From: Formosa agariphila KMM 3901
GTDB lineage: Bacteria > Bacteroidota > Bacteroidia > Flavobacteriales > Flavobacteriaceae
Assembly: GCF_000723205.1 (NCBI RefSeq)
Contig: NZ_HG315671.1
Span: forward strand, 2,391,351 to 2,455,350
Length of the DNA: 64,000 nt
Reading direction: 5' to 3'
The notes beneath the pieces are model-generated. The model ran no database searches and was not told where the DNA came from. It saw only the letters and a list, made by a program, of their open reading frames with translations. A program made the translations under genes and the position numbers. Numbering within the stretch: the stretch's first letter is position 1; each line of letters starts with the position of its first letter. Shown piece after piece: positions 10,899 to 60,066 of this stretch.

Positions 10899-10909
10899 TT
10901 AAGCAAAAT

Positions 10910-20141: not shown

Positions 20142-20273
20142 TAATATGATTTTTTTTAAAACTATAAATTAACTGTCTATTTATTCACCATTAAGATTAT
20201 AAAAATAACCAAAATGTCGGAAATACACATTTTTTTAACTGATTAGAATATGATAATTAAATGTAGCTACTTC

Positions 20274-20281
20274 TATATTTG
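20274..20281 (+). promoter_or_regulatory. Candidate -7 box of the cytochrome operon
   Basis: TATATTTG matches the Bacteroidota -7 consensus TAnnTTTG and lies 22 bases before the ATG at 20304. It supports that start over the ATG at 20250, which would be upstream of the promoter. No clear -33 TTG was found at the right distance. Confidence 0.45.
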
Positions 20282-20303
20282 CTATTATCCAATTAAAATT
20301 TTC

Positions 20304-23549: not shown

Positions 23550-23568
23550 TTATTAAAAAAACTAAGCC

Positions 23569-25080: not shown

Positions 25081-25087
25081 ATACACT

Positions 25088-26194: not shown

Positions 26195-26229
26195 TTTTAA
26201 TTGATTAAAAAAGAATAGACACACTTTAC

Positions 26230-27624: not shown

Positions 27625-27628
27625 CAAA

Positions 27629-30282: not shown

Positions 30283-31977
30283 TTAATCGTTCCAATGTGC
30301 ATCAATTACTTTCTGTATATGGGGAAACTTATCTCCATCTTCTTCATTTAATTCCTTTCGTTTTACAAGGAGCTGCAGTTTTAAATCGGCAATCGTTTCA
30401 GCATATTTAGGATCGTTATAAGCATTATTCATCTCTTTTGGATCTTCTTGTAAATCATAGAATTCCCAAGCCGCCGGTGTATCCATTTCAAATGCATTAC
30501 CCCAACTTTTTTTGTTCCATGTGGCATTTGGATCTTTTGTATCTACCCAATATTTTCCATAAAAGAAAATAAGTTTATAACGTTTAGTTCTTAATCCAAA
30601 ATGAGCTGGATTAGCATGTTTATGTGCCATATGCATCCAATATCGATAATATGTAGATTGTTGCCAACCTTCAGGTTCTTCTCCTGTTTCTAGAATCGTT
30701 TTAAAACTATGACCTTGCATTTGTTCTGGTGCCGTACCTCCTGCTAAATCAATAAGTGTTGGTGCAAAATCTGTATTATTAATAATTGCATCACTACGTG
30801 TTCCTGCTTTTATACTTTCAGGATATCTAACAATAAAAGGCATACGTAAAGATTCTTCATACATCCAACGCTTATCAATATAATCATGCTCTCCCAACAT
30901 AAACCCTTGATCTCCTGTGTATACGATTATAGTGTTTTCGTATAACCCTTCATCTTTCAAGAATTGTATCATTCTAGCAACATTATCATCTACACCTTTA
31001 ACACATCGTAAATAGCGTTTTAAATACTCTTGATACGTTTCGTGTGTATATTCTTTATCTGACAATAAATCATATGATTTATTTGTTGAATTAAACTCTG
31101 GATCAGATTTTGCAATTGATTTTTTATCCCACATTGTCATCCCCATACTTCTAATCGTATTTCGCCTTGAAACAGAAGACCCAATAACATGAATTAAAGA
31201 ATCATTTGCTCCTCGGGTTGCTATAGATCCATTGTTTCCGTTATCATAAAGACTTTCGGGTTCCGGGATGTGCGTGTCTTTTAAATAGTCCTTGTAACGT
31301 GGTGCATATTCAAAATTATCATGTGGAGCCTTAAATTGGTACATCAACATAAACGGTTTATTCTTATCCCTTTTATTTTTTAACCAATCTATTGAAATGT
31401 CTGTAATTACATCTGAACTATGACCTTTATATTGTTTACCTTCAAATTCAGGATCGTGTTCTAAAGCAAAATTCATCCCTGTTTCTGTGAGTACCGGATC
31501 AAAATAAGTGCCTTGTTCACCATGAGCGGTGAGCACATTGTAATAATCAAAATTCGGCTTAGATGATAAATGATACTTCCCTATTAATGCTGTCTGATAT
31601 CCTAATTTCTTTATTTCTGTAGGTAAATATTGATTTTCTGTAGGTAATACACCTTCTAAATCTAACACTCCATTTGCTTGACTATATTGTCCAGTAAGTA
31701 TAGTTGCTCTACTTGGTGTGCAAATAGAGTTTGTAACGAAGCAATTATTAAAAATCATACCTTCATTAGCAATTTTATCTATCGTTGGTGTGGGATTCAA
31801 TTTCGCCAATCGACTGCCATAAACCCCAACTGCCTGAGTAGTATGGTCGTCTGACATGATATATAAAATATTAGGTTTTTGCTTCGGAACTTCCTCTTCA
31901 ACCTTTTTAGCACAACTCGTAAAACAAATTGCAACACTTGCTATGCAAATTATATGTGAATAGATTTTATTAAGCAT
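30283..31977 (-). CDS. Sulfatase (formylglycine type), lipoprotein, possibly S1_11
   Basis: A 564-residue S1-family sulfatase, which hydrolyses sulfate esters with a formylglycine made from Cys 86 in CTPSR (86-90). Metal-binding Asp 43 and 44 lie in YIMSDDH. Other family motifs are GKYHLSSKP, YTGDQGFMLGEHDYIDKRWMY and a C-terminal KRYKLIFFYG. The lipobox FTSC gives Cys 22, so the enzyme is membrane-anchored. The pattern NSICTPSRATILTGQYSQAN recalls subfamily S1_11, which includes 6-O-sulfatases acting on GlcNAc and on the L-galactose-6-sulfate of porphyran; that assignment is from memory. It is the last gene of the minus-strand unit, after the mutarotase. Confidence 0.9.
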   Translation of the reverse strand: MLNKIYSHIICIASVAICFTSCAKKVEEEVPKQKPNILYIMSDDHTTQAVGVYGSRLAKLNPTPTIDKIANEGMIFNNCFVTNSICTPSRATILTGQYSQANGVLDLEGVLPTENQYLPTEIKKLGYQTALIGKYHLSSKPNFDYYNVLTAHGEQGTYFDPVLTETGMNFALEHDPEFEGKQYKGHSSDVITDISIDWLKNKRDKNKPFMLMYQFKAPHDNFEYAPRYKDYLKDTHIPEPESLYDNGNNGSIATRGANDSLIHVIGSSVSRRNTIRSMGMTMWDKKSIAKSDPEFNSTNKSYDLLSDKEYTHETYQEYLKRYLRCVKGVDDNVARMIQFLKDEGLYENTIIVYTGDQGFMLGEHDYIDKRWMYEESLRMPFIVRYPESIKAGTRSDAIINNTDFAPTLIDLAGGTAPEQMQGHSFKTILETGEEPEGWQQSTYYRYWMHMAHKHANPAHFGLRTKRYKLIFFYGKYWVDTKDPNATWNKKSWGNAFEMDTPAAWEFYDLQEDPKEMNNAYNDPKYAETIADLKLQLLVKRKELNEEDGDKFPHIQKVIDAHWND

Positions 31978-32020: not shown

Positions 32021-32371
32021 TTAGATTAACTGAAATATTTTTTCCATTTCAACCCATTTTTCTCCATTTTTTGCCCAAGGAACTCCTAGTTGATATTTCC
32101 ACATTAACATTTCCCATTCTTGGACCTTAGGATTATTAGCATCCATTTCTGCTTTTTTATTTGGATTAAATGACGAATCACATTCCATAATCATGAACAT
32201 TCTATTTCCTGTTAAATAAATTTGCATATCTACAATTCCTGCCGATTTTATACTTTCTGTTATTTCAGGCCATGCTTTTCCTTTAGCATGAAAGTCCTTG
32301 TATTCTGCAATAAGTTTCTGATTATTTATTAAATCGCAAGTCAAACAATATCTAGTCGTTTCAGTAATCAT
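32021..32371 (-). CDS. L-rhamnose mutarotase family protein (DUF718)
   Basis: A 116-residue cytoplasmic protein of the RhaM/YiiL family, which interconverts anomers of 6-deoxy-L-sugars. The start at 32371 is preferred because it lies 7 bases after the permease stop and fits the family length of about 105-115; the longer open frame to 32425 would overlap the permease. The active-site region is DFHAKGKAWPEI with His 28, and the end holds MLMWKYQLGVPW. In loci with fucose permeases this family probably acts on L-fucose or, as suggested here, L-galactose, feeding the dehydrogenase that oxidises one anomer. Confidence 0.85.
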   Translation of the reverse strand: MITETTRYCLTCDLINNQKLIAEYKDFHAKGKAWPEITESIKSAGIVDMQIYLTGNRMFMIMECDSSFNPNKKAEMDANNPKVQEWEMLMWKYQLGVPWAKNGEKWVEMEKIFQLI

Positions 32372-32378
32372 AATACAA

Positions 32379-33716
32379 TTAAATTTTTGAAGATTTATAT
32401 GTACTGTAGCCATAATACGCCACAACAGTTAAACAAATTAAGGGTAGTATAAAAGAAAAATTTACCTCAGGTATATAACCTAATATCTTTTCGTCTGAAA
32501 ATCCTGGTCCGCCCCAATCTAAAATACTTCCCTGTAAGACTGGCATTAATGCACCACCAACAATGGCCATTACAAGTCCTGCTGAACCTATTTTTGCTTC
32601 ATCGCCCATATCTTTTAAAGCAATTCCATAAATAGTAGGAAACATGATAGACATGAATACTGAAACAGACACCAAAGAGATTAACCCAGCCATTCCTGGC
32701 AAAACAACAGCTCCTGCCGAACATACAACACCTCCAATACCAAAAAGCATTAAAATTTTAGAAGGATTAATACGTTTCATTAATGCTGTTCCAATCCATC
32801 TCCCTACTAAAAAAGAAACCATAGCAGCGACATTAAAATAAGTTGCCGTTAAACTCCACCCTTGAGTTTCATTTAAATTATCTACATATTGAAAAATATA
32901 GGTCCAACACATAATTTGTGCTCCCACATAAAAAGCTTGAGTAACGACACCTTGCACATAATTTTTATTAGCAAATAACTTTTTAAAAGAATCTGAGATA
33001 CTTATTTTTTCTTCTTCTATAGATTTTGGAAATTTCATAAAAATAACGACTACCATTATTAAAACAACTAATAACCCTAAACCTATATATGGTAAACTTA
33101 TTACACTTAAATCATTATCACGAATTACAGCAATCTCTTCTACAGGAAGGGCATTATAAGCCTCTCGCGTATAATCGTCTGAACGTAATGCATTAATCAC
33201 AAAAACTTGCGCGATAATCATTCCGAATAAAGACCCTACAGGATTAAAGGCTTGCGCTAAATTTAGACGCTGTGTCGCTGTTTCTCTGTCTCCTAAGGAT
33301 AGAATTAAAGGATTTGAAGTTGTTTCTAAAAATGCTAAACCACATGTAATCACCCAAAGGGAAATTAAGAAATAAGTAAATTCTGCATTTACTGCAGCAG
33401 GATAAAATAAAAATGCTCCAATAGCATATAAAGCCAAACCTAAAACAATCCCCGATTTATAACTATATTTTCTAATGAATAAAGCAGCAGGTAACGCCAT
33501 AAAAAAGTACCCAAAATAGAAAGCAAACTGAACTAATGAAGCTTGAGTATTCGATAATTCTGGCATCACTTTTTTAAAAGCAGACACCATAGGATTCGTT
33601 AAGTCATTTGCTATTCCCCAAAGAGCAAAGAGAGATGTTATAATAATGAATGGAAAAAGAAGTTCTTTACGAACCACAGGTATTTTTGTTTTCATTTCTT
33701 TAATATTTTTTTTCAC
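32379..33716 (-). CDS. fucP: FucP-type MFS sugar:proton symporter
   Basis: A 445-residue inner-membrane transporter of the fucose permease group in the major facilitator superfamily, with about 12 membrane helices. Typical parts are FALWGIANDLTNPMVSAFKK in helix 1, FAFYFGYFFMALPAAL in helix 2, and LAFLETTSNPLILSLG with NLAQAFNPVGSLFG in helices 4-5. E. coli FucP carries L-fucose and also L-galactose and D-arabinose, so it suits either sugar. The gene follows GH29 after a hairpin terminator and is followed within 7 bases by the mutarotase. Confidence 0.9.
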   Translation of the reverse strand: MKKNIKEMKTKIPVVRKELLFPFIIITSLFALWGIANDLTNPMVSAFKKVMPELSNTQASLVQFAFYFGYFFMALPAALFIRKYSYKSGIVLGLALYAIGAFLFYPAAVNAEFTYFLISLWVITCGLAFLETTSNPLILSLGDRETATQRLNLAQAFNPVGSLFGMIIAQVFVINALRSDDYTREAYNALPVEEIAVIRDNDLSVISLPYIGLGLLVVLIMVVVIFMKFPKSIEEEKISISDSFKKLFANKNYVQGVVTQAFYVGAQIMCWTYIFQYVDNLNETQGWSLTATYFNVAAMVSFLVGRWIGTALMKRINPSKILMLFGIGGVVCSAGAVVLPGMAGLISLVSVSVFMSIMFPTIYGIALKDMGDEAKIGSAGLVMAIVGGALMPVLQGSILDWGGPGFSDEKILGYIPEVNFSFILPLICLTVVAYYGYSTYKSSKI

Positions 33717-33798: not shown

Positions 33799-35349
33799 CT
33801 ATTTATTATTATTCATTTTTAAGTCTAAAACAAAAGCAAAATCGCCTGGTTTTTCTTTAGGTAATTTCACTTCTAAACCTTCAGGTGTTAACGACCATTT
33901 TAAAGTAGCATCGCTACCTAAAAGCTTCACATCCAAAACGTCATCTTCACCATTAGTAATTGATTTAATTATTACACTTCCACTTTCAGGCCATGCCATC
34001 ATTATTGCAAAGACGTGATTATCTTTGGTTGTAAAACGTATATCTTGTCCCGTAAAATCTTTATTTTTACCTTCAGAATGATGACCTTCTTCTACTTCTG
34101 TCGGACCTTCTCCAAATACTCTCCAATAGTTGGTATCATAAATCGCTTCACCATTTATATCTAACCAATGTCCAATTTGTAATAATATATCTTTTTGATC
34201 TTCTGGTATTGTTCCGTCTGCTTTTGGTCCTACATTAAGTAATAAATTTCCATTTTTTGAAACGATATCGACTAAATCATCTACTAATTGATTAGCTGTT
34301 TTAGATTGCCAATTGGTTACATAAGACCACGAATTCTTACCAATAGAGGTATCTGTTTGCCAAGGCAACTTTCTAATTCCTGGCAATTTCCCTCGTTCTA
34401 AATCATAAATTACAGTCCCTTCAGGAAATGCTTCGTGATCAAAATTCTTATCATTTATCACCACTTCTTTCCCCCATTCAAGACCTTTATTGTAATAATA
34501 AGCCGCTATTTTTGGTCTTAAATCTTTAAAATCTGGAATATCTAAATAGAAATCGAACCATAAAATATCTGGCTGATAATTATCAATTAAATCAACGGTT
34601 CTATCCCACCAACGTTGTTTAAAGGCGTCGGAAACTGGTTCTCTTAGGTTTTTCCCTTTGCTAGAATATAAATCAGCATATTCAGGGTCTGTTGTATCAA
34701 ACTTATCTTTTTTATTAAAGAAAGACCAGTTAAACGCAAAGTGAGAAGATGCACCCATAATCATACCTTGAGAACGTCCTTCTTTAAAAAGTTCTCCAAG
34801 AACATCGCGTTTAGGTCCCATATCTACAGAATTCCAACGTGTTGTATTAGATTTGTACATGGCAAATCCATCATGATGATCGGCTACTGGAATAACATAT
34901 TTTGCACCAGATTTTTTAAATAAATCAATCCACTCTTTGGCATCAAAGTTTTCACCTTTAAACATTGGAATAAAGTCTTTATAACCAAATTTTTTCTGAT
35001 CACCCCACTCCTTTTTATGATGTAAGTACACATCTGAAGGTCCCATTTTAGACAATTTTAATTGAGCTGTAAAGTTTGCAGAATCCATGTACATTTGTCT
35101 TGGATACCATTCTGAACTATATGCAGGAACGGCATATGCTCCCCAGTGTATAAAAATTCCGAATTTTTTCTGATTAAACCATTTAGGGTCTTTATAATTG
35201 GCTTTAATTGACTCCCAATTAGGTTCAAATCGAGGTTCATCATTTTTTTCCACTACAGGTGTTACTGCGTCTTTCTTCTTTTCGCAAGATGATGTTACAA
35301 CATTTAGAACCACCATTAAAACTAAAACTATCTTGTTATGTATTTTCAT
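33799..35349 (-). CDS. GH29 alpha-L-fucosidase / alpha-L-galactosidase, lipoprotein
   Basis: A 516-residue exo-glycosidase of family GH29, a retaining enzyme that removes alpha-L-fucose and in some members alpha-L-galactose. The lipobox is SSC at Cys 22. The fold begins FNQKKFGIFIHWGAYAVPAY (about 58-77), followed by VADHHDGFAMY (His 158, 159) and DILWFDFYLD, where Asp 266 is the expected nucleophile. Many GH29 enzymes have WFDG here, so the Phe after the Asp is a local difference. GNLLLNVGPKADG is another family mark. Placement beside an L-galactose route suggests that L-galactose, possibly after desulfation, is the natural leaving sugar. Confidence 0.92.
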   Translation of the reverse strand: MKIHNKIVLVLMVVLNVVTSSCEKKKDAVTPVVEKNDEPRFEPNWESIKANYKDPKWFNQKKFGIFIHWGAYAVPAYSSEWYPRQMYMDSANFTAQLKLSKMGPSDVYLHHKKEWGDQKKFGYKDFIPMFKGENFDAKEWIDLFKKSGAKYVIPVADHHDGFAMYKSNTTRWNSVDMGPKRDVLGELFKEGRSQGMIMGASSHFAFNWSFFNKKDKFDTTDPEYADLYSSKGKNLREPVSDAFKQRWWDRTVDLIDNYQPDILWFDFYLDIPDFKDLRPKIAAYYYNKGLEWGKEVVINDKNFDHEAFPEGTVIYDLERGKLPGIRKLPWQTDTSIGKNSWSYVTNWQSKTANQLVDDLVDIVSKNGNLLLNVGPKADGTIPEDQKDILLQIGHWLDINGEAIYDTNYWRVFGEGPTEVEEGHHSEGKNKDFTGQDIRFTTKDNHVFAIMMAWPESGSVIIKSITNGEDDVLDVKLLGSDATLKWSLTPEGLEVKLPKEKPGDFAFVLDLKMNNNK

Positions 35350-35559: not shown

Positions 35560-38955
<3,396 letters not shown>

Positions 38956-39903
38956 TTAAAACTTATCTAAAATAATGTCTGTAATTTCGTTGAAAATAGA
39001 TGCTTCTAATTTCCCTTCATCCCAAGCATTTAACAAATCTACCATTTGTTCTTTTTTAGTAGGCCCCACAACGACTCTGTCGGCTTCTTTTATTGAGAAA
39101 ACATATCTTAATGCTAATCGTGACAATGGAATGCTATGTTTTAGAGCGATATCATTTATTTTAAGGGCGGTATCCACATCTAAATTGGTAATCCATTCGT
39201 TATTCGGTCTGTCTTCATTGTACTCCTTTAAACGTCTACCTAACAGCCCCATATGTAAAGCTGACGCTGCATAATAGGCAATGTTTTCATTTTTAATTTG
39301 AGGAATATCTCTTTCAAATCCTGATAAATTACAAGCATCCATTTTTAAAAAGCCTGAAAGCACATCAAAATTATCTTTTATCATATGAGGATAAAATGGT
39401 TCTGTTGGATTTCCTCCAATGCCTAACATACCTACAATTCCTTCTTTTTTTAAACCATTCAAACATTCCATGATTTCGTCCATACGTTCTACCGGCACTA
39501 AATGTGGTTCGTGTAAAAACAATAAATCGATTTTATCGACTCCTATCACTTCTAAACTTTCGTACACACTTTTCTTCATACTTTCTGGAGAATAATCTAC
39601 AATACAATCATCTGCTCTATCTGCGCGTAAACGCCCTACTTTAGTACTAATAAATGGTTTTTCTCCAGTCCATAATTTTAATGTTTTTCCTAAATATTCT
39701 TGAGATTTGTTATAGGATGGCGCCGTATCGAAAACACGAACTCCATTCTCTAAAGCATACATTAAAGTTCCAACTGCATCTTTTTCTTCTATAGATCTCC
39801 AAACTCCTCCTAAACCAGAACAACCACAAACTAATCTGCTCTCGTTATTGAAGAATTCACTTTTTTTATAATCTCCCTCTATATATGTTGGTCTTGTAAT
39901 CAT
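38956..39903 (-). CDS. Aldo/keto reductase, probable L-galactose/L-fucose 1-dehydrogenase
   Basis: A 315-residue cytoplasmic NAD(P)-dependent aldo/keto reductase. The catalytic tetrad is visible as Asp 59 (VFDTAPSY), Tyr 64, Lys 88 (FISTKVGR) and His 131 (LLFLHEPH). The overall pattern resembles bacterial D-threo-aldose 1-dehydrogenase (L-fucose dehydrogenase) and plant L-galactose dehydrogenase, both of which oxidise the sugar C1 to a lactone. It is followed upstream in transcription order by a lactonase gene 11 bases away, which fits lactone formation. The expected product in this locus is L-galactono-lactone; L-fucose is the main alternative substrate. Confidence 0.85.
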   Translation of the reverse strand: MITRPTYIEGDYKKSEFFNNESRLVCGCSGLGGVWRSIEEKDAVGTLMYALENGVRVFDTAPSYNKSQEYLGKTLKLWTGEKPFISTKVGRLRADRADDCIVDYSPESMKKSVYESLEVIGVDKIDLLFLHEPHLVPVERMDEIMECLNGLKKEGIVGMLGIGGNPTEPFYPHMIKDNFDVLSGFLKMDACNLSGFERDIPQIKNENIAYYAASALHMGLLGRRLKEYNEDRPNNEWITNLDVDTALKINDIALKHSIPLSRLALRYVFSIKEADRVVVGPTKKEQMVDLLNAWDEGKLEASIFNEITDIILDKF

Positions 39904-39914
39904 CTTTTCTTCAT

Positions 39915-40742
39915 TTATAAATTGTAAAATTCTACAGCATTTAATCCCATGATAGCTCGTTGTTCTTCGAGACTTAATTTTGCTATAAAATCGGTTGTTA
40001 TTTTTTTTACTTTTTCATAGTTCCCTGCTACTAAACACACTGGCCAATCCGAACCAAACAAGATTCTTTCTACCCCAAATACATTTAAAACCAGTCGCAT
40101 ATAAGGTAATAACGCCTCATAAGTCCAAGTTTTATAATCGGCTTCAGTAATCATTCCTGATAATTTACAATACACATTTTGTTGTTTTGCAATTTCTGTC
40201 ATTAACACAGCCCAACCTTCATAAAAACCATCTTTAATATAAGGTTTAGCAATGTGATCAATTACAAATTTGATGTTTGGAAATTGTTTAACAAACTCTA
40301 AAACCGCTCCTAATTGATGTGGAAACACCAAGATATCGTAAGTAAAATTGTTTTTTTCAAGTTTAGAGATACCTTTTAAAAAATCTGGTCTTAATAAAAA
40401 ATTGGGGTCTGCTTCGCCTTGAACAATATGACGGAATCCTTTTACTTTATCAAATTGACTATAATGTTCTAAAACTGTATCGATGTCATTCCCTCTAAAA
40501 TCTACCCAACCAACAATGCCTTTTATAAAATCATTCTTAGCAGCCAAGTCTATTAAAAAATTGGTTTCTTCTAGCGTTTGATCTGATTGTATAGCAACAC
40601 ACCCATCGATATTATTTTGATTATAAATTAGTTTTAAATCTAACGGCATAAAATCTTTACGAATATTTGCCATATCATCATCTATCCAGCTATGTTTTAC
40701 AGGCTCGTATTTCCAAAAATGTTGATGAGAATCTATTGTCAT
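39915..40742 (-). CDS. Amidohydrolase-family sugar lactonase
   Basis: A 275-residue cytoplasmic hydrolase of the amidohydrolase_2 group, related to L-fuconolactonase and L-rhamnono-lactonase. Metal-binding His 6 and 8 lie in IDSHQHFW at the N-terminus; other marks are KFVIDHIAKP in the middle and RILFGSDWPV near the C-terminus. The length matches the group (about 275-290). It lies between the tagaturonate reductase and the aldo/keto reductase genes, with 18- and 11-base gaps, so it is part of the same transcript. In the proposed route it opens L-galactono-lactone to L-galactonate. Confidence 0.88.
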   Translation of the reverse strand: MTIDSHQHFWKYEPVKHSWIDDDMANIRKDFMPLDLKLIYNQNNIDGCVAIQSDQTLEETNFLIDLAAKNDFIKGIVGWVDFRGNDIDTVLEHYSQFDKVKGFRHIVQGEADPNFLLRPDFLKGISKLEKNNFTYDILVFPHQLGAVLEFVKQFPNIKFVIDHIAKPYIKDGFYEGWAVLMTEIAKQQNVYCKLSGMITEADYKTWTYEALLPYMRLVLNVFGVERILFGSDWPVCLVAGNYEKVKKITTDFIAKLSLEEQRAIMGLNAVEFYNL

Positions 40743-40760
40743 TTTATCTTGTTTTGGAAT

Positions 40761-42200
40761 TTAATTCTTTAAAAAATCTTGTAAGGCAGCTTGCATTCCA
40801 TTATTTACAATTTCTTGTAAATAAGTAGTTACCGTTTCTTGTAGACCATTAATCTTAGACAAATCAGCTCCCCAGAATTCTATATGTTCTAACGTTGCTT
40901 TCACCACTTGTTCAACATCTCCAGTCGCCCATTGTGTTTCGAAAAAATCTAAAGCAAACTGATCATCTTTTAAATTTATTTTTTCACCATTACGGTCACC
41001 TTTATAAAAAGCAATTAAAGCGGCTAACGAAAACAACAACCCTTTTGGCAACGCATTCTTTCTTTTGATATATTCTAAAACGGATGGTAAAACTCTTGTT
41101 TTAAATTTAGAGGTTGTATTTAACGAAATGCTCATCAATTCGTGCTCTAAATATGGATTTCTAAAACGGTCTAACACATCGTTAGAGAATTGATTTAATT
41201 CTGATTCTGGTAAATCTAAGGTTGGACAAATTTCGTTAAAAATTGTATTCTTTAAGTACGTGCCAACAATGTCATCTTCTAAAGATTCACGCACTTTATC
41301 AATGCCATATAAATAACCCACGGGAACTAAAGTAGTGTGTGCTCCATTTAAAATTCTAACTTTTCGTGTTCTATAAGGCTCCATATTGTCTGTAAACACA
41401 ATATTTAAACCACAAGCTTCTGCAGGAATTTCATCTTTTACAGAAGCTGGGCCTTCAATAACCCATAAATGGAATTGCTCGCCTTCTACAACTAAATTAT
41501 CTTTATAGCCTAATTCTTCAGTAATTGATTCCATCTTATCTTTAGGATATCCAGGAACAATACGGTCTACCAAAGTATTACAGAAAATATTATCGTAATT
41601 AATCCACTCCATAAAACCGGAGCCTAAGTTCCAATTTTCAGCATATTGTAAAATAATACGTTTTAGATTATCACCATTTTTATCGATTAATTCGCAAGGA
41701 ATCACAATTAATCCTTTATCTGAAGCCCCTTTAAAAACTTGAAACCTTTTATATAATAGGGCTGTTAATTTCCCTGGAAAACTAGACTGCGGAGCATCTT
41801 CTAACTTATCTTGAACATCATAAGAAATACCAGCTTCTGTAGTATTAGAAATCACAAAACGAAGATTAGGATTTTCTGCAACTGCTAAATAGTCTGCATA
41901 ATTTTCATAAGGATTAATACCACGTTGAATACAATCTATTATCTCGTGTTCACTAATAGATTTTCCTTTTTTTATACCATTTAAATATAATGTATATAAA
42001 CCATCTTGATCATTTAGCATTTTTACTAGCCCTTGGTCTATAGGTTGTATAGCAACAACACCTGCATCAAAATTTACTTTTTTATTCATTTCATGAATCA
42101 TCCAATCAGCGAAAGCTCTTAAAAAGTTACCTTCTCCAAATTGAATAATTCGTTCTGTATACGATTTTACGTATACTGTTGTTCTATTTAAATTTTTCAT
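40761..42200 (-). CDS. uxaB: Tagaturonate reductase (altronate oxidoreductase)
   Basis: A 479-residue member of the mannitol dehydrogenase family, matching UxaB, which reduces D-tagaturonate to D-altronate with NADH. The start at 42200 gives MKNLNRTTVY with an AAGG-like ribosome site a few bases upstream; the open frame to 42242 would overlap uxaA. Motifs are IIQFGEGNFLRAFADWMIHE (nucleotide-binding start), NTLVDRIVPGYP and VRILNGAHTTLVP, where Lys and Asn/His of the family catalytic region lie. It sits 17 bases after the altronate dehydratase gene, so substrate and product enzymes are adjacent. Confidence 0.9.
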   Translation of the reverse strand: MKNLNRTTVYVKSYTERIIQFGEGNFLRAFADWMIHEMNKKVNFDAGVVAIQPIDQGLVKMLNDQDGLYTLYLNGIKKGKSISEHEIIDCIQRGINPYENYADYLAVAENPNLRFVISNTTEAGISYDVQDKLEDAPQSSFPGKLTALLYKRFQVFKGASDKGLIVIPCELIDKNGDNLKRIILQYAENWNLGSGFMEWINYDNIFCNTLVDRIVPGYPKDKMESITEELGYKDNLVVEGEQFHLWVIEGPASVKDEIPAEACGLNIVFTDNMEPYRTRKVRILNGAHTTLVPVGYLYGIDKVRESLEDDIVGTYLKNTIFNEICPTLDLPESELNQFSNDVLDRFRNPYLEHELMSISLNTTSKFKTRVLPSVLEYIKRKNALPKGLLFSLAALIAFYKGDRNGEKINLKDDQFALDFFETQWATGDVEQVVKATLEHIEFWGADLSKINGLQETVTTYLQEIVNNGMQAALQDFLKN

Positions 42201-42217
42201 TGTATCGCCTTCTATAT

Positions 42218-43870
42218 TTATAAAGAAACTCCTCGCTTCCAAGGAATAAAATCGTTATTACCATGAAGTACGGCTTTAGAAGCAGTTTCACCACTAGCCA
42301 CACGAATTACATGGTCTAGAATTTTCTCTCCCATTGTTTCTATAGTGTCTTCACCACTAATTACTGTACCTGCATTGATGTCAATTATATCCTTCATACG
42401 CTCAAACAGAGCGGTATTACTAGACATTTTTAAAACTGGTGCTACAGGGTTACCTGTTGGTGTCCCTAAACCTGTGGTAAATACCACCACGTTACAGCCT
42501 GACCCCACCAAACCAGTAGTTGATTCCACATCATTACCTGGTGTACATAATAAATTTAAACCTGGCTTAGTTACTTGTTCTGTATAGTCTAGAACTTCCA
42601 CTACCGGAGACGTACCCCCTTTTTTGGCTGCACCTGCAGATTTCATAGCATCGGTAATTAAGCCATCTTTTATATTTCCGGGCGACGGATTATTCTCAAA
42701 ACCAGAACCTACAGCAACTGCTGCTGCAGAATAGGCTCTCATAATATCATAAAACTTTTTAGCATCTTGTGTTGTATTACATCTATTAATAATATCTTGC
42801 TCCACGCCGTTTAATTCTGGAAATTCTGATAAAACAGGACTACCTCCTAAAGCCACTAATAAATCTGAAGCATAACCCAATGCTGGATTTGCAGATATTC
42901 CTGAAAAGCCATCGGAACCACCACATTCTAAACCAAGAACTAATTTACTTAGAGGTGCCGGCTGTCGTATTATTTTATTAGCTTCAGTTAAACCTATAAA
43001 CGTATGTTTTACTGCTTTTTCAATAAGACTTCGTTCACTTTTACTTTGTTGTTGTTCTAAATAATAAACGGGTTTATTACAAGAGGGTGCTATAGTTTTA
43101 ATTGCATTCTGCAGCAATTCTATTTGTGCATTTTGGCAACCTAAACTTAATATTGTAGCCCCTGCAACATTTGGGTTCGAAATATAACCTGCTAATAACC
43201 TACACAATGTTTCCGAATCCTGGCGAATTCCGCCACAACCACCATCGTGTTTTAAAAACTTAATACCATCTACATTGGGGAAAACTCTATTTTTAGCCAT
43301 TTCCTCTTTAGATGTGATTATTGGAGTATTAAAAATTTCATCTGCCGATGCTCCAGCTTTATATTTTTGAATTAAAGCATCGGTATCTACTGCAAAATCT
43401 TTTTTAGTTTGATATCCTAATTTTTCTGAAAGTGCCGCTTCAATAACATCAATATTCCTGTTTTCACAAAACACTAAAGGGATTACCAACCAATGATTTG
43501 CCGTTCCTACTTTTCCGTCATTTCTATGATATCCACTAAATGTTCTTCCTTTAAAATTTGAAATATCTGGAGCTCTCCACGTGTATTTTTCTTTGCTATC
43601 TTTATAATCTGAAGAAGCGTGTTTTACATTTTCAATGGTAATTGCGCAACCTGATTGAATGTGTTTTGTTGCTTTACCAATTAAAACACCATACATAAAA
43701 ATTTCATCGTTAACTGCTAAATCAAATAAAGCAAACTTATGCTTTTGTTTAATATCTTCTTTAAGAACTAAACTTTCTCCCCCAACTTCAATTTCTGTCC
43801 CTTTTGCCAATCCTTGAATGGCAACTATTATATTATCTTTAGGGTCAATTTGTGCGTAACTACTAACCAT
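42218..43870 (-). CDS. uxaA: Altronate dehydratase
   Basis: A 550-residue cytoplasmic dehydratase of the UxaA family, which turns D-altronate into 2-keto-3-deoxy-D-gluconate. The N-terminal SAF domain (about 10-90, NIIVAIQGLAKGTEIEVG) is followed by the large C-terminal domain with GYHRNDGKVGTANHWLVIPL, KHDGGCGGIRQDSETL, LGLECGGSDGFSGISANPAL and NLLCTPGNDVESTTGLVGSG. Several conserved Cys in these motifs probably hold an iron cofactor. Only 6 bases separate it from the upstream dehydrogenase gene. Its presence shows that an aldonate becomes KDG here rather than a 6-deoxy intermediate. Confidence 0.94.
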   Translation of the reverse strand: MVSSYAQIDPKDNIIVAIQGLAKGTEIEVGGESLVLKEDIKQKHKFALFDLAVNDEIFMYGVLIGKATKHIQSGCAITIENVKHASSDYKDSKEKYTWRAPDISNFKGRTFSGYHRNDGKVGTANHWLVIPLVFCENRNIDVIEAALSEKLGYQTKKDFAVDTDALIQKYKAGASADEIFNTPIITSKEEMAKNRVFPNVDGIKFLKHDGGCGGIRQDSETLCRLLAGYISNPNVAGATILSLGCQNAQIELLQNAIKTIAPSCNKPVYYLEQQQSKSERSLIEKAVKHTFIGLTEANKIIRQPAPLSKLVLGLECGGSDGFSGISANPALGYASDLLVALGGSPVLSEFPELNGVEQDIINRCNTTQDAKKFYDIMRAYSAAAVAVGSGFENNPSPGNIKDGLITDAMKSAGAAKKGGTSPVVEVLDYTEQVTKPGLNLLCTPGNDVESTTGLVGSGCNVVVFTTGLGTPTGNPVAPVLKMSSNTALFERMKDIIDINAGTVISGEDTIETMGEKILDHVIRVASGETASKAVLHGNNDFIPWKRGVSL

Positions 43871-43876
43871 TTTCGT

Positions 43877-44887
43877 TTAATTAAATTTAACCATTGCCTT
43901 AATGACTCCCGTTTCAGGTTTAGTCCAACTCTCAAAATGTGTTATCATATCTGTAAAATCAACATTATGTGTAATAAACGATTCTGTTGGAAATTGATTT
44001 AGAACACTTATAACATGTTCAAAATCTTCTGTTGTTGCATTTCTACTACACATAATTGTAGTTTCCTTAGCATGAATCTTTGGATGATTAAAAACTAAAT
44101 CACCTTTAGATAGTCCTACCAAAACATAACGACCTCCATGCGACATATAATCTGGCCCAACCTCTAAAGCACCTTTATAACCTGTTGCATCGAAAACTGC
44201 AGTTGCCATATCTCCATTTGTAATTTCAGCTATTTTTTCAACAGGATTATCATTGACGTTAATTATATAATCTGCTCCAATTTCATCTTTAGTATATTGT
44301 AAACGTGCATCGTTTACATCTAGAACAATTACTTTTGCGCCTGCTATTTGTGCTAATTTCACCATTCCAATTCCAATTGGTCCACAACCAACAACAACTA
44401 CAATTTCTCCTTTTTGAACATTTGCTCTACGAATAGCATGAGCTCCAATAGCTAAAGGTTCTACGATTGCCATTTCATTATCAGATAAATTATTAGCTGG
44501 TAATAATAAATCTTGACGCACCGTAATAAATTCTTGCATACCTCCATCAGAATGAACTCCTAGAACACTAATATTAGTACAACAGTTTGTTTTACCTTTT
44601 CTGCATGCAATGCATTTACCGCAACTTACATATGGCATAACTACAACTTTATCCCCTGCTTTTAATCCGCGATTATTTTCACCAATCTCTACAATTTCTG
44701 AAGCCAACTCATGTCCTAAAATTCTGGGGTATGTAAAAAAGGCTTGGTTTCCAGAAAACGCATGTAAATCTGTTCCACAAATCCCAACTTTTTTCACCCT
44801 TAACAAAGCTTCATTTTCTTTACGAACAGGTGCTTCTTTTTCTTTTAACAAGAACCTTCCAGGCTCTTCACAAACTATATATTTCAT
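43877..44887 (-). CDS. Zinc-dependent dehydrogenase, probable L-galactonate 5-dehydrogenase (LgoD-like)
   Basis: A 336-residue medium-chain alcohol dehydrogenase. Catalytic zinc ligands are Cys 37 (GICGTDLH), His 59 and Glu 60 (LGHE); structural zinc ligands are Cys 89, 92, 95 and 103 (SCGKCIACRKGKTNCC). The Rossmann motif is VVVVGCGPIGIGMVK. E. coli LgoD (YjjN) is the same type and oxidises L-galactonate to D-tagaturonate, the substrate of UxaB. As first gene of a unit with uxaA and uxaB, this enzyme most simply has that role. A sorbitol- or fuconate-type dehydrogenase is the alternative. The start codon is 14 bases from an inverted repeat. Confidence 0.88.
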   Translation of the reverse strand: MKYIVCEEPGRFLLKEKEAPVRKENEALLRVKKVGICGTDLHAFSGNQAFFTYPRILGHELASEIVEIGENNRGLKAGDKVVVMPYVSCGKCIACRKGKTNCCTNISVLGVHSDGGMQEFITVRQDLLLPANNLSDNEMAIVEPLAIGAHAIRRANVQKGEIVVVVGCGPIGIGMVKLAQIAGAKVIVLDVNDARLQYTKDEIGADYIINVNDNPVEKIAEITNGDMATAVFDATGYKGALEVGPDYMSHGGRYVLVGLSKGDLVFNHPKIHAKETTIMCSRNATTEDFEHVISVLNQFPTESFITHNVDFTDMITHFESWTKPETGVIKAMVKFN

Positions 44888-45144
44888 CTTATATTTTTTT
44901 TAACAGAATTTGCTGTTATAGGAATGCTAGTTATTAATGTGTAAAATTCGATTATATGTTTTCTTTCTATTGTAGTAAATGTTTTAAAAACTAGAACATA
45001 TGATTTTTAATTCAATAACAAAGAATCCCACAATCTGCAAAACCCGCTGAATACAAAGTGTTTAATATTAAAAAAGAGTAATATCATTTTACAAACGGTA
45101 TTTTAAACCATCAATTTTATATGTTTAATTTGATATATTTGTTT
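44888..45144. promoter_or_regulatory. Divergent control region between the dehydrogenase and the hybrid sensor
   Basis: About 255 AT-rich bases between two divergent transcripts. TAACAG (44901-44906) pairs with CTGTTA (44913-44918) around six bases, just upstream of the dehydrogenase. ATATGTT (44954-44960) and AACATAT (44995-45001) form a second, wider inverted repeat. Either could be an operator; both are short. Confidence 0.4.
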
Positions 45145-48100
45145 ATGATGAAAAACAGAATTAAAACCAATAAAAAAGAGAAATCCACCTATATTTTAAT
45201 TAGGTTACTCTTTGTATTTTTTATTTTAACATCTAAAATATACGCTCAAAACATTCTAAAATTTGAACATCTTACTACAGAAGATGGTTTATCTCAAAGT
45301 GATATTAACACGATTTTTCAAGATCAAAAAGGCTTTATGTGGTTTGGCACACATGATGGATTAAACAGGTACGATGGTTATAATTTTACAATTTTTAAAC
45401 CCGACAATAAAAACCCTAAAAGCATTAGTAGTAATTTAATTTGGAAAATAATCGACGATTCTAAAGGAAACTTATGGATTGGTACAACTGGTGGTGGTTT
45501 AAATTATTTTAATCAAAATACTGAAGAGTTTAAAATTTTTAAACATCTTAAAACAGATGACTCTAGTTTACAAAGTGATTATATAACGTCTCTATATAAG
45601 GATAGCAGCAACAGGTTATGGGTAGGAAATTCTAAAGGAATAGACATGGCCGATTTAAACGTTCCTTTAGATTCAATTACTTTTAAGCATTACAATCTTT
45701 ACCAAAACAGTGCTTTACCTATAAAAAGCACTAATAATGTAAATGTCTTTTATGAAGACAGTAAGCATCAAGTATGGATTGGAGGCGTGAATGGTTTATC
45801 TAAACTCTCAAGAGACACTCAAGGCGATATTTATTTCCAACCCGTAAATCAACTTATAAATTTACCAAACATTAATGTTAAAACTATAACCGAAGATAGT
45901 TTTGGAAATTTAATATTAGGTACCGCCAACGGTATATATCGTTATTTACCAAATAATGAAACCAACCCTATTCAGTTTATTTATGAAGGTGTTTATAATA
46001 CAGTTGCGATATCAGACAACCATATTTGGGCAGGAACAGACAATGGTTTAATTGAATTTACAAACCTATCTGAAACCGAAACTCCAAAATTAGTAAGCAT
46101 ATACAAATACGATCAAAAAAACCCAAACTATAGTTTAAGTAGAAATACAGTAAAATCTGTATTTATAGATCATACGGGGATTGTTTGGGTAGGTTCAAAT
46201 GGTGGTGGTATTAACAAGTTTGACCCACATAGAAAGCAATTTTTACACATTAAGAAAAATTTAGACCCTAACAGTTTAAGTAATGATAAAATTAGATCAA
46301 TTTTTGAAGACAGCTCTCAAAATCTGTGGATTGGTACAGAAGGTAGTGGGCTTAATCTAGTATACAAAGAAGACGTAAATAATGGTTTCAACAAATTTGA
46401 ACACTTTTCTAAAATTAATAAAGTTTTTGCCATAGAGGAAATTCAGTTAAAAGATTCTAGAAAATTATTTGTTGGAGGTGAAAATACCCCTGGATTATTT
46501 GAAATTGATTTATCAGAGAAAACGATTTACACTGAAGACGATTTAAAACCAATAACTGGCGTATCTAACAGTGTTTTTTCAATTCTTCAAGATCAAGATA
46601 AAAACATTTGGATTGGAACCTATAATGGTGGTATAAACCGTTGGTTAATTAATAATGATGAATCTACATTTACAAAAGATGAAATAAAAGCTAACCCAAA
46701 TGATGAACGTAGTTTACCTAATAATATAATTCGTTACATTTTTCAAGATTCTAAAAAGAATATATGGTTCGCTACAGGTGGTGGTCTAGCTCGTTTAACA
46801 CCTGACCAACTTCAATCTAAATCCCCTGTATTTGATACATATTTAAATAATCCTGAAGATGACTCCTCAATAAGTCATAATTACATTTTAACCATTTTTG
46901 AGAGTCAATCTGGAGATATCTGGATAGGGACTTTTGGAGGTGGACTAAATAAAGTGATCCCCCAAGACGATGGAAAAAAATTACATTTTAAAACTTTCAC
47001 TACTAATGAAGGGCTTCCTAATAATGTAATAAAAGGCATATTAGAAGACGACCATAACAATTTATATTTATCGACTAACAAAGGGTTATCTAAATTTAAT
47101 ATTGAACACGAAACATTCCAAAACTATGACGTAAATGACGGATTACAAAGTAATGAGTTCAGTGAACTAACTGCCTTTAAAACACAAGATAATAGAATGC
47201 TTTTTGGTGGTGTAAATGGTTTTAATGCCTTTTATCCAGACAAAATTATTAGTAACGAAATAAATGCTGAAACCGTTTTTACAAACTTTTCAATCTTTAA
47301 TAAACCTGTTCATATAGGGGAACAAATAAATGGTCGAGTAATCTTAAACCAATCCATTAATTCTACCGATGAAATTAAGCTAAAATATAGTGAAAATAGT
47401 TTTTCATTCGAGTTTGCAGCTTTACACTACGCTGCTTCTAGAAAAAACAAATATGCTTATAAGTTAGAAGGATTTAATGACGATTGGATTTACACTACAT
47501 CAGACAATAGATATGCGACTTATACTAATTTAGAACCTGGCACCTACACCTTAAAAGTTAAAGCATCTAATAACGATCAAGTATGGGACGAAACTCCGTT
47601 AGAATTAAAAATAAAGGTGTCTCCACCATGGTGGAGAACTAGTCTTGCTAAAGTACTATACCTACTCTTAGCTGTTGCATTACTTTTAGCATTTAGACGA
47701 TTTACCATTATACGTTCAACTGAAAAGCACAAATTAGAACTTCAACATTTAGAGAAAGAAAAACACGAAGAAATTCATCGTTTAAAATTAGAGTTTTTCA
47801 CCAATATATCACATGAATTCAGGACACCTTTAACTTTAATTAAAGGCCCCTTAGATTATTTACTAAAAAAAGGTGCAGAAGTTAGTACTAAAGAAGCCAA
47901 AGATCAATATTTATTAATGCGAAAGAATACAGATTATTTGTTACGCTTAGTAAATCAGTTATTGGATTTTAGGAAAATGGATACTGGAAAAATGAACCTA
48001 AATATAAGTAAAAATGACATCGTAGCATTTTTAATAGAAGTTGGAGAACCCTTCCAATTTTTAAGCCAGAAAAAACATATTCACTTCAATATAAAAGCAT

Positions 48101-49431
48101 CACAAGATAAAATACTAACATGGTTTGATCCTGATGCCGTAGAGAAAATTACCAATAATTTATTATCTAACGCCTTTAAATTCACTCCAGAAAACGGTAC
48201 CATTACACTTGATATTTTTGATGGAAACGATTTTGAAACACCTACAGATATCGAAACTAATTTGGAGCAATCCAAATATATTGTAATTAGAGTTCAGGAT
48301 TCAGGACCTGGAATTCCAGCACATAGAATTCAACATATATTTGAGCGTTTTTATACTGAAATAAATCTAACAACTGCTGCTAAAACAAAAGGCACAGGAA
48401 TAGGCTTATCTTACACCAAAAACTTAGTAGAATTACATCAAGGTATAATAAAAGTTAAAAGTGATTCAGAAAATGGTTCTACGTTCTTAGTTTGGCTACC
48501 TAAAGACAAAGAAACCTTTGAAGCTAATTCTGAACTTAATTTTCATGAAGTATTTGAAGACAACACCTTTATAAGCCAAGTCGATGCAGAGTCGCATGCT
48601 ATAAGTTTTATGGATGATATAATAGATCAAAACATGACAAGGTCGCGATCTAAATTGCCACTCCTTTTAATTATAGACGACAATCCAGACATCAGATCTT
48701 TTATAAAAAAAGGATTAGGAGAAAACTATTATGTGTATGAAGCTGAAAATGGAGAAGTCGGCTTAGAATTAGCTAAAAAATTTATGCCTAATATTGTTAT
48801 TACAGATCTTGTTATGCCTGTAATGGATGGTATTGAATTTTGTAATAAATTAAAAGGATCGCAAGAGACAAGTCATATCCCTGTAGTCATGCTAACTGCA
48901 AAAACATCGCAAGAAAAAGAGATAGAAGGTTTAAAAACAGGTGCAGATGCATATATAAGAAAACCTTTTGATTTAGAACTTTTAGAATTAAAGCTTTCAA
49001 ACATTTTAAAAGATAGAGAAGAACTTCGCAAAAAATTTAATAGAGAAATTACGCTTCAACCAAATGAAGTTACAGTAACATCTCCTGATGAAGTCTTTCT
49101 TCAAAGCGCCATTCAAATCGTTGAAAAACACATGATGAATTCTGAATTTAGTGTAGAAATGCTAGTGAAAGAAATGAATATGAGTAGAAGTAATATGTAC
49201 CTAAAGATTAAAGAACTTACAGGTCTTACTTCTAGTGAATTTATAAGAAACATTCGATTAAAACGCGCAGTACAGTTATTTGAAAAGAGTGATCTTTCTG
49301 TAAAAGAAATCATGTACATGACAGGTTTTAACACAGCTTCATACTTTTCTAAATGTTTTAAAAAACAATTTGGAGTTATACCGAGTAAGTATTTAAGACT
49401 TAGTCAAAATGATGATACTCCGGCAGATTAA
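45145..49431 (+). CDS. Hybrid two-component system sensor-regulator (HTCS)
   Basis: A one-protein sensor and regulator of polysaccharide loci, 1428 residues from the ATG at 45145 (45121 adds eight hydrophobic residues). After a signal/anchor (LLFVFFILTSKIYAQ) come about 14 Reg_prop repeats forming two periplasmic propellers (GLSQSDINTIFQDQKGFMWF; NIWIGTYNGGINRW), a Y_Y_Y domain (LEPGTYTLKVKASN), a membrane helix (VLYLLLAVALLLAF), HisKA with His 890 (ISHEFRTPLTL), HATPase (GTGIGLSYTKNLVELH), a receiver with Asp 1221 (ITDLVMPVMDG) and a C-terminal AraC HTH (MTGFNTASYFSKCFKKQFG). Such proteins sense an oligosaccharide in the periplasm and activate the surrounding genes. Divergent placement suggests control of both flanks. 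Confidence 0.96.
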   Translation: MMKNRIKTNKKEKSTYILIRLLFVFFILTSKIYAQNILKFEHLTTEDGLSQSDINTIFQDQKGFMWFGTHDGLNRYDGYNFTIFKPDNKNPKSISSNLIWKIIDDSKGNLWIGTTGGGLNYFNQNTEEFKIFKHLKTDDSSLQSDYITSLYKDSSNRLWVGNSKGIDMADLNVPLDSITFKHYNLYQNSALPIKSTNNVNVFYEDSKHQVWIGGVNGLSKLSRDTQGDIYFQPVNQLINLPNINVKTITEDSFGNLILGTANGIYRYLPNNETNPIQFIYEGVYNTVAISDNHIWAGTDNGLIEFTNLSETETPKLVSIYKYDQKNPNYSLSRNTVKSVFIDHTGIVWVGSNGGGINKFDPHRKQFLHIKKNLDPNSLSNDKIRSIFEDSSQNLWIGTEGSGLNLVYKEDVNNGFNKFEHFSKINKVFAIEEIQLKDSRKLFVGGENTPGLFEIDLSEKTIYTEDDLKPITGVSNSVFSILQDQDKNIWIGTYNGGINRWLINNDESTFTKDEIKANPNDERSLPNNIIRYIFQDSKKNIWFATGGGLARLTPDQLQSKSPVFDTYLNNPEDDSSISHNYILTIFESQSGDIWIGTFGGGLNKVIPQDDGKKLHFKTFTTNEGLPNNVIKGILEDDHNNLYLSTNKGLSKFNIEHETFQNYDVNDGLQSNEFSELTAFKTQDNRMLFGGVNGFNAFYPDKIISNEINAETVFTNFSIFNKPVHIGEQINGRVILNQSINSTDEIKLKYSENSFSFEFAALHYAASRKNKYAYKLEGFNDDWIYTTSDNRYATYTNLEPGTYTLKVKASNNDQVWDETPLELKIKVSPPWWRTSLAKVLYLLLAVALLLAFRRFTIIRSTEKHKLELQHLEKEKHEEIHRLKLEFFTNISHEFRTPLTLIKGPLDYLLKKGAEVSTKEAKDQYLLMRKNTDYLLRLVNQLLDFRKMDTGKMNLNISKNDIVAFLIEVGEPFQFLSQKKHIHFNIKASQDKILTWFDPDAVEKITNNLLSNAFKFTPENGTITLDIFDGNDFETPTDIETNLEQSKYIVIRVQDSGPGIPAHRIQHIFERFYTEINLTTAAKTKGTGIGLSYTKNLVELHQGIIKVKSDSENGSTFLVWLPKDKETFEANSELNFHEVFEDNTFISQVDAESHAISFMDDIIDQNMTRSRSKLPLLLIIDDNPDIRSFIKKGLGENYYVYEAENGEVGLELAKKFMPNIVITDLVMPVMDGIEFCNKLKGSQETSHIPVVMLTAKTSQEKEIEGLKTGADAYIRKPFDLELLELKLSNILKDREELRKKFNREITLQPNEVTVTSPDEVFLQSAIQIVEKHMMNSEFSVEMLVKEMNMSRSNMYLKIKELTGLTSSEFIRNIRLKRAVQLFEKSDLSVKEIMYMTGFNTASYFSKCFKKQFGVIPSKYLRLSQNDDTPAD

Positions 49432-59626: not shown

Positions 59627-60066
59627 TGAAGAATAAGAACATTATTTTTAAAAGTCAGTATGGTGCAAATAACACTATTATTCGTATAACAGAAGGAAAA
59701 ACTAAATATAAAAAACACCTATTATTTTCCGTTATCTACCTAGTAACACTTGTGTGTTTTTCTCAAAAAAACATCGTAAATATAGATTTTACAACTCAAA
59801 AATTTATAGGTTCTGAAAGCGAATTAAACAGAGAAAAATACTTTGCAATCCACGGGTCGTATACTGATAATGGATTAGCAGATAATCCCGAATATTTATT
59901 CGACGATTTAGGTATTAAGTTTGGAAGAACCTTTGGTGGACCCCGCCCCTATTCAAAATTAAATAAGAATAACTTATCCATTGAAAACGCACTGAATTTA
60001 GGTATAAACAACTCAGAAAGGCACGAAAAGCTCTGCTATATAATAAGTATAAAACCACAGATTTAA
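59626..60066 (+). CDS. GH86 agarase/porphyranase, N-terminal part (frameshifted gene)
   Basis: The first 146 codons of a GH86 endo-hydrolase gene that really spans 59626-61520. The start overlaps the GH2 stop codon (TAATG), a sign of translational coupling. A hydrophobic signal (LLFSVIYLVTLVCFSQ) follows an unusually long, basic N-terminal stretch of about 30 residues. The catalytic domain begins at about 60 with KYFAIHGSYTDNG and FDDLGIKFGRTFGGPRPYSK, typical of GH86. At the AAAA of 60026-60029 the protein leaves the family frame, reads HEKLCYIISIKPQI and stops at 60066. One extra A there would restore HEKALLYNKYKTTDLI and join the downstream part. Confidence 0.82.
   Translation: MKNKNIIFKSQYGANNTIIRITEGKTKYKKHLLFSVIYLVTLVCFSQKNIVNIDFTTQKFIGSESELNREKYFAIHGSYTDNGLADNPEYLFDDLGIKFGRTFGGPRPYSKLNKNNLSIENALNLGINNSERHEKLCYIISIKPQI

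Follow-up and report, generated by a model that had tools for sequence, protein, structure and literature searches.

A predicted L-galactose catabolic operon in a porphyran-type locus of Formosa agariphila KMM 3901

What becomes of L-galactose, which makes up half of the sulfated repeat of porphyran, once the polymer has been cut? Work on porphyran explains the cutting, and the fate of this sugar is not stated in the accessible parts of that work. The question is raised by a 64,000-nucleotide stretch of the Formosa agariphila KMM 3901 chromosome (G000:C1:2391351-2455350; hereafter, the window), a single contig of 4,228,350 bases that is 100% complete. Five close-packed open reading frames (ORFs) at 38956-44887, on the minus strand of the window, encode catabolic enzymes, and we propose, with a probability of roughly 0.9, that they serve to break down L-galactose, as an operon within a porphyran utilisation locus. 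A route for L-galactose is already known from Phocaeicola vulgatus and Luteolibacter, and the pathway is therefore not new; the locus, in turn, would supply an almost complete set of genes, open to testing, for the way from polymer to pyruvate in a type strain that is in culture. Families were assigned with Pfam and NCBIfam models against their cut-offs, and the nearest solved structures are sequence matches in the Protein Data Bank (PDB), given in bits. G-numbers denote genomes and L-numbers fetched loci, G000 being the window genome.

The five-gene catabolic run

From the promoter side, the run encodes a Zn-dependent dehydrogenase of the LgoD type (43877..44887), UxaA (42218..43870), UxaB (40761..42200), an amidohydrolase lactonase of the L-fuconolactonase family (39915..40742) and an aldo/keto reductase (38956..39903), with spacings of 6, 17-20, 18 and 11 bp. 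The second of these depends on the UxaB start, which the ORF list places at a TTG (42242); the likelier start is an ATG 14 codons further in, at position 42200. A preliminary description of this DNA had reported five adjacent minus-strand genes of these families, and both the coordinates and the family models agree with it.

In the proposed chain, the reductase would oxidise L-galactose to L-galactono-1,5-lactone, the lactonase would open the 1,5-lactone to L-galactonate, the LgoD-type dehydrogenase would oxidise C5 of L-galactonate to give D-tagaturonate, UxaB would reduce D-tagaturonate to D-altronate, and UxaA would dehydrate D-altronate to 2-keto-3-deoxygluconate (KDG). For UxaB, the tagaturonate reductase model NF002969 scores 695 bits (cut-off 359), and the protein is 46% identical to E. 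coli UxaB; elsewhere in the genome UxaB has one match, a protein 29% identical to it whose highest scores are with the arabinitol dehydrogenase and fructuronate reductase models. The Zn-dehydrogenase carries ADH_N (99 bits) and ADH_zinc_N (93 bits) domains and, among E. coli proteins, matches LgoD (41.5% identity, 280 bits), RspB (35%, 174 bits) and Tdh (132 bits). A phylogeny against LgoD had been suggested as a check in the preliminary description. In the resulting tree of 55 proteins (48 from the loci collected below, the window's and six from E. coli), the dehydrogenases of the window and of two locus types defined below, A and B, group with LgoD in one clade (99/95), apart from the five other E. 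coli dehydrogenases, RspB, Tdh, IdnD, GatD and YdjJ; the six E. coli proteins are the only references in this tree, and their branches are long and were flagged by the program.

The reductase matches PF00248 (144 bits), and the tetrad D59-Y64-K88-H131 that had been read from its sequence is real, being identical in 81/81 aligned reductases (the window's and those of 80 loci). Its top PDB match is named L-galactose dehydrogenase. The lactonase matches PF04909 (147.5 bits) and, under the cut-off of 400, the L-fucono-1,5-lactonase model NF052480 (249 bits); the sole PDB sequence found for it at E 1e-10 is 4DLF (169.5 bits). UxaA is the only copy in the genome and contains GD_AH domains of 322 and 133 bits. 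Since its only NCBIfam match, galactarate dehydratase, falls under the cut-off (287 against 731 bits), the family alone leaves the substrate unfixed, and, because the protein is 32% identical to E. coli UxaA (271 bits) and 33% to GarD (236 bits), the assignment leans on gene context, which favours altronate.

A porphyran-type neighbourhood and the end of the chain

After the reductase, the same strand continues with genes for a LacZ-type GH2 beta-galactosidase (35560..38862), a GH29 glycoside hydrolase (33799..35349), a FucP-type MFS symporter (32379..33716), a DUF718/rhaM-family protein (32021..32425) and an S1 sulfatase (30283..31977), with gaps of 165, 210, 106, -2 and 43 bp, given later starts for GH2, FucP and DUF718 than those in the ORF list. 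The family models uphold the earlier placement of FucP, DUF718 and GH29 beside the operon, with GH2 in between. The sulfatase, absent from the preliminary description, is the strongest single pointer to L-galactose-6-sulfate. Its top PDB match is the exo-L-galactose-6-sulfatase 7LHA (611 bits), which we take to be the Bacteroides plebeius enzyme BpS1_11, and the next kind of match is an N-acetylglucosamine-6-sulfatase (367 bits). The top PDB matches of the GH29 protein, at 437 to 431 bits (7SNK 437, 7LJJ 433), are chains of the exo-alpha-L-galactosidase BpGH29 of B. plebeius. Of these, 7SNK is filed as an alpha-L-fucosidase and is the BpGH29 alpha-L-galactosidase according to the accessible part of PMC12316285; the best fucosidase-named chain other than 7SNK reaches 279 bits. 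The models NF052611 for GH2 (1044.7 bits over 999), TIGR00885 for FucP (499.5 over 280.4) and PF05336 for DUF718 (103.4 over 23.4) are all above their cut-offs, and the genome has one further DUF718 copy.

Further along the window lie four more S1 sulfatases, two more GH2 genes and one GH86 endo-porphyranase/agarase gene. The last is on the plus strand and split over two ORFs in different frames (59626-60066 and 60165-61520), with PF18206 and PF18040 on the second, to which PDB GH86 matches begin at chain residue 137 at the earliest. The break is either damage or a sequencing error, and some GH86 relatives in other genomes have a long open frame across this domain. Beyond the window, genes were found for a P450, a ferredoxin-reductase-like protein, a Zn-alcohol dehydrogenase, a GH2, an esterase and a GH16 whose nearest match is porphyranase B (181 bits); a 28-base part of a FoADH-gene primer, as given in the accessible part of PMC10033563, matches exactly 8.3 kb beyond the window. 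With candidates for an endo-porphyranase, an L-galactose-6-sulfatase and an alpha-L-galactosidase in one place, the locus can be classed, as far as these matches go, as a putative porphyran utilisation locus. GH16 and GH86 enzymes would cut the polymer, the sulfatase at 30283 would strip the 6-sulfate from terminal L-galactose, and GH29 would free L-galactose and GH2 probably D-galactose; FucP would then import L-galactose, and the DUF718 protein would interconvert its anomers.

The preliminary description had expected the last two steps to be encoded elsewhere. No gene for KDG kinase or for the aldolase of 2-keto-3-deoxy-6-phosphogluconate (KDPG) was seen in the window, and candidates for both lie about 1.27 Mb away on the same chromosome. 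The aldolase is the sole PF01081 match of the genome (NF005499, 380 bits over a cut-off of 275). Two places before it, a PfkB-family gene is the candidate KDG kinase, and its top models are KDG-kinase types (478 and 208 bits, against cut-offs of 700 and 440). Together, the two enzymes would convert KDG to pyruvate and glyceraldehyde 3-phosphate.

Between the candidate kinase and the aldolase stands a PfkA-family gene (L006 9562-10779), whose top NCBIfam model is the pyrophosphate (PPi)-dependent type (344 bits, cut-off 550). The KDG kinase LguH of Luteolibacter prefers PPi (PMC12632266, accessible part), and, as a speculation, the PfkA-type protein could be a PPi-using KDG or sugar-acid kinase. 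A PPi-dependent-type PfkA-family gene likewise stands between KDG kinase and KDPG aldolase at about 4.1 kb of L082. Beside the KDG kinase cluster, L006 12766-16245 encodes a 1159-residue protein without a hit to any Pfam or NCBIfam model under the thresholds applied; it may resemble a PPi-type phosphoenolpyruvate carboxykinase.

Recurrence in other genomes and the choice of substrate

To place the operon among its relatives, a collection of 84,980 species genomes was scanned with an alignment of 12 reductases, which gave 138 stretches and 91 relatives, of which 80 loci were kept; the scan relied on two peptide patterns, and locus counts are therefore not prevalences. By tblastn within the available flanks, the loci were typed as A (16), B (23), C (10) and other (31). 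A-type loci, defined by UxaB and a lactonase near the reductase, have the Zn-dehydrogenase, FucP and DUF718 in 16/16 and UxaA in 15/16, with reductases 73-89% identical to the window's and the FucP gene directly after the reductase in all 16. They come from genera that include Joostella, Wenyingzhuangia, Tamlana, Lutibacter, Mariniflexile, Flavicella, Algibacter, Salegentibacter, Polaribacter, Flavobacterium and Labilibaculum. Because the same set recurs in other genomes, the gene set is not a product of chance, and it could serve as a marker for finding L-galactose users in genomes. The operon of G305 (L057) is flanked by counterparts of the window's GH2 (88%), GH29 (78%) and two of its sulfatases (76 and 80%), together with a GH86 at 60%. 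KdgK-like and KdgA genes accompany seven of the A-type loci, just upstream in L079 and inside the catabolic run in L071 and L072 (Wenyingzhuangia), L075 and L078 (Labilibaculum), L081 (Salegentibacter) and L082; the window genome's kinase shares only 47-48% identity with those of L071, L072 and L081. In L082, which lies in G473 on the same contig as L060, the run reads Zn-dehydrogenase, KdgK, PfkA-type, KdgA, UxaA, UxaB, lactonase, reductase, FucP and DUF718.

A hybrid two-component system regulator (HTCS; 45121..49431, plus strand), with Reg_prop, Y_Y_Y, HisKA, HATPase, Response_reg and HTH_18 domains, is divergent from the operon and is a candidate sensor of the locus. Relatives of it (55-73%) lie near 5/16 A-type operons, divergently on the 5′ side in three and past the 3′ end in two.

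The link with agaran degradation was examined in 397 Flavobacteriaceae genomes, counting the reductase at E 1e-20 or better and GH86 as PF18206 over its cut-off. The reductase is present in 16 of these genomes, at 50% identity or more in 13, and GH86 in 21. GH86 occurs in 12/13 genomes with a reductase of at least 50% identity, a line chosen after the hits were seen; without the window genome, the count is 11/12, with 0.6 expected (hypergeometric 2e-15). By genus, it occurs in 10/11 genera with the reductase and in 17/237 overall (2e-12), a count that controls for relatedness only partly. Where the reductase is under 50% identical, in three genomes, GH86 is absent, so that all hits with the window genome give 12/16, and two further genomes of the window's genus lack both genes. 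The GH86 domain is common to agarases and porphyranases, and the co-occurrence thus speaks for agaran users and not for porphyran users alone. A phylum-wide reductase search at a strict E 1e-30 found the window genome alone among 247, and none was found in viral contigs.

Taken together, the entry of L-galactose proposed in the preliminary description is supported by the GH29 and sulfatase matches, the LgoD clade, the in-run KDG-kinase-like and KDPG-aldolase genes, and the GH86 co-occurrence together with a separate L-fucose isomerase. Several observations weigh against it. Solved L-galactose dehydrogenases are only distant relatives of the reductase (80.6 bits, against 75.8 for IolS), whose top NCBIfam model is methylglyoxal reductase (62 bits, cut-off 550); UxaA is about equally close to galactarate dehydratase and to E. 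coli UxaA, the KDG kinase candidate is under its NCBIfam cut-offs, and the family names of the lactonase and FucP point to fucose. The window's own GH86 gene is frame-broken, and the flanks of the A-type loci show GH29 in 5/16, GH86 in 1/16 and an S1 sulfatase in 1/16, GH86 being the one gene also looked for outside these flanks, in the Flavobacteriaceae set. G473, a genome 82% complete, carries the operon without GH86. In addition, with the window genome excluded, the GH86 link spans both locus types (5/6 A-type and 6/6 B-type genomes), and it therefore attaches to the reductase rather than to A-type operons alone.

The fucose names raise the question of whether the reductase and lactonase instead yield L-fuconate from fucoidan-type L-fucose, FucP and GH29 being true fucose proteins, as would suit a family that is classically one of fucosidases. 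We consider this very unlikely. UxaB, UxaA, KDG kinase and KDPG aldolase would then need 6-deoxy substrates, and 6-deoxy acids lack the O6 that the kinase would phosphorylate. KDG kinases phosphorylate C6 as a family. Such phosphorylation is described for LguH in the accessible part of PMC12632266, and a run that includes both KDG kinase and KDPG aldolase therefore calls for a sugar with a 6-hydroxyl. Moreover, an L-fucose isomerase gene lies elsewhere, 1.2 Mb away, the GH29 and sulfatase match L-galactose enzymes, and the family models reveal no fuconate dehydratase in the operon. Genome-wide, there are five MR_MLE hits, and the four above the cut-off, scanned over their C-terminal parts, carry no fuconate-dehydratase name (they are talarate/galactarate-like, ManD, DgcA and MenC); this negative covers those four proteins only, within one dehydratase family.

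A pectin substrate deserves attention on other grounds. UxaC is present elsewhere in the genome, which counts against L-galactose, and the operon holds the sole UxaA and the sole close UxaB, which could take tagaturonate made by UxaC; a side role is thus possible, and the earlier statement that the chain joins only if L-galactose enters was too strong. That D-galacturonate is the main substrate, with the other three genes incidental, is nevertheless highly improbable. UxaC lies near KduD/KduI-like, mannonate-dehydratase-like and TRAP-transporter-like genes, a glucuronate-type set as judged by eye and not by family models, and the genome has a separate fructuronate-reductase-like gene. Furthermore, the five genes travel together across loci, and a hexuronate module leaves the reductase, the lactonase, the LgoD-type enzyme, GH29 and the L-galactose-6-sulfatase unexplained. 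It is equally hard to favour a dual L-glucose/L-galactose route as in Luteolibacter sp. LG18, or another L-sugar as the main substrate. In LG18, LguA and LguD accept both sugars, but the dual route needs the C4 epimerase LguG, and L-glucose is presumed absent from nature (PMC12632266, accessible part). No such epimerase is among the operon genes, the set searched for it, and the locus is of the porphyran type. We retain L-galactose as the probable substrate.

A route for 3,6-anhydro-L-galactose from agar was also considered and set aside, the operon genes including neither an enolase-family cycloisomerase nor an aldehyde dehydrogenase. The genome's one talarate/galactarate-like enolase gene (C1:2559450) is about 104 kb past the window end, in a different gene set. 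By eye, this region (L168, G000:C1:2549000-2568900) contains SusC/D, enolase-family, aldehyde dehydrogenase, SDR (short-chain dehydrogenase/reductase), Zn-dehydrogenase and GH3 genes and two sulfatases, and it apparently encodes another sugar-acid pathway.

Within the A-type set, some operons vary. In L056 (about 13325-13530; Mariniflexile maritimum, contig shared with L077), all that matches UxaA is two short pieces (41 and 30 residues), located between UxaB and the Zn-dehydrogenase; the operon is otherwise intact. In the Bacteroidales loci L075, L076, L078 and L085, identity to the window's proteins is 73-79% for the reductase but only 50-58% for the lactonase, UxaA, UxaB and Zn-dehydrogenase, as if the entry reductase had moved between operons or evolved slowly; in a tree, this reductase stands just outside the flavobacterial group. 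UxaB of L070, L071, L072, L081 and L084 forms a separate subgroup, with 45-47% identity to the UxaB of the window where other flavobacterial A-type operons reach 76-82%, and a gene replacement is likely.

A second layout and known routes

B-type loci (23/80) were defined by an enolase-family gene more than 60% identical to that of L063. All 23 also contain an SDR, a reductase 50-57% identical to the window's and an LgoD-clade dehydrogenase, and none has the lactonase, UxaA or UxaB within its flanks (tblastn). GH29 is found in the flanks of 15/23, FucP in 17/23 and an SSS transporter in 6/23. The L063 enolase-family protein scores best against mandelate racemase (170 bits) and almost equally against 3,6-anhydro-L-galactonate cycloisomerase (166 bits). 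Of the 25 models listed for the SDR, a glucose 1-dehydrogenase subfamily is the only one whose cut-off is passed (223 against 215 bits); KduD models follow closely at 217 and 209 bits, under their cut-offs.

By analogy with the agar pathway, which the B-type layout resembles (PMC5943477 and PMC10163077, accessible parts), these enzymes could convert L-galactonate to 2-keto-3-deoxy-L-galactonate, which C5 oxidation and re-reduction would then turn into KDG. Red-algal Bacteroidota would accordingly have two L-galactose wirings behind one kind of entry reductase, A inverting C5 before dehydration and B dehydrating first, a tentative idea to which we give somewhat worse than even odds. If it holds, the B-type would be a bacterial L-galactonate-dehydratase route, of which no description was found in the literature searched; the accessible part of a review (PMC11219438) names 3,6-anhydro-L-galactose as the bacterial source of 2-keto-3-deoxy-L-galactonate. 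Alternatively, B-type loci may serve L-fucose, as a dehydratase with an SDR also suits a non-phosphorylating fucose pathway, and none of the 23 has KdgK or KdgA nearby.

A-type operons, by comparison, have described counterparts. The P. vulgatus L-galactose pathway (BVU_0219 and BVU_0222) is cited in the accessible part of PMC12632266. The window operon, likened to it by pathway description and not by gene-by-gene homology to the BVU sequences, differs in belonging to a marine flavobacterium and in that its locus also carries L-galactose-6-sulfatase-like, alpha-L-galactosidase-like, FucP-type and porphyranase-type genes. The lactonase is reportedly part of the P. vulgatus pathway (Hobbs et al. 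2014). In Luteolibacter sp. LG18, the chain of lguABCDEF was shown by assays and gene disruption. Compared by description in the accessible part of PMC12632266 and not by sequence, LG18 shares with the window a sugar dehydrogenase, an NAD-dependent 5-dehydrogenase, a tagaturonate reductase and an altronate dehydratase, with the KDG kinase outside the main cluster; unlike the window operon, its cluster has a KDPG aldolase and no lactonase, and the C4 epimerase and PPi-preferring KDG kinase are elsewhere. The same part of that work reports no organism with lgu orthologs minus lguG. The last three steps of the operon correspond to E. coli lgoD, uxaB and uxaA (41.5, 46 and 32% identity), but E. 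coli starts from L-galactonate, and its genes are scattered.

On the polymer side, the locus is like the porphyran locus of B. plebeius (BpS1_11, BpGH29 and BpGH2C; PMC12316285), its GH29 being nearest to BpGH29 among solved structures. The accessible part of PMC12316285 describes depolymerisation and not the fate of L-galactose, and the words galactonate and tagaturonate are absent from its main text. The 3,6-anhydro-L-galactose pathway of agar degraders, in the accessible parts of PMC5943477 and PMC10163077, likewise ends in KDG, KDG kinase and KDPG aldolase and inverts C5 by oxidation and reduction; it differs in its entry by anhydrogalactose dehydrogenase and cycloisomerase and in that C5 inversion follows formation of the keto-deoxy acid. 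The accessible parts of PMC5613140, PMC8360166, PMC5698469, PMC5385347 and PMC12316285 contain no L-galactose pathway, and no paper on a marine-flavobacterial operon of this kind was found among titles and abstract starts, a search whose coverage excludes most subscription journals and supplements. Our interpretation would rename genes now modelled as fuconolactonase, fucose permease and alpha-L-fucosidase.

Among the other 31 loci, four (L114, L118, L119 and L121) have the reductase and lactonase without UxaB. L113, L116 and L117 (Saprospiraceae, Lewinella) show a third porphyran-type layout, in which GH86 is opposite to DUF718, L-galactose-6-sulfatase-like, GH29 and reductase genes and the flanks lack the remaining pathway genes. 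In the window itself, SusC/SusD genes at 7881-12424 lie about 18 kb from the sulfatase and may belong to the locus. Between them and the L-galactose genes, a planctomycete-type cytochrome block occupies 20250-28687 (PSCyt1/PSCyt2/DUF1553, DUF1501, DUF2231 and a MauG-like peroxidase).

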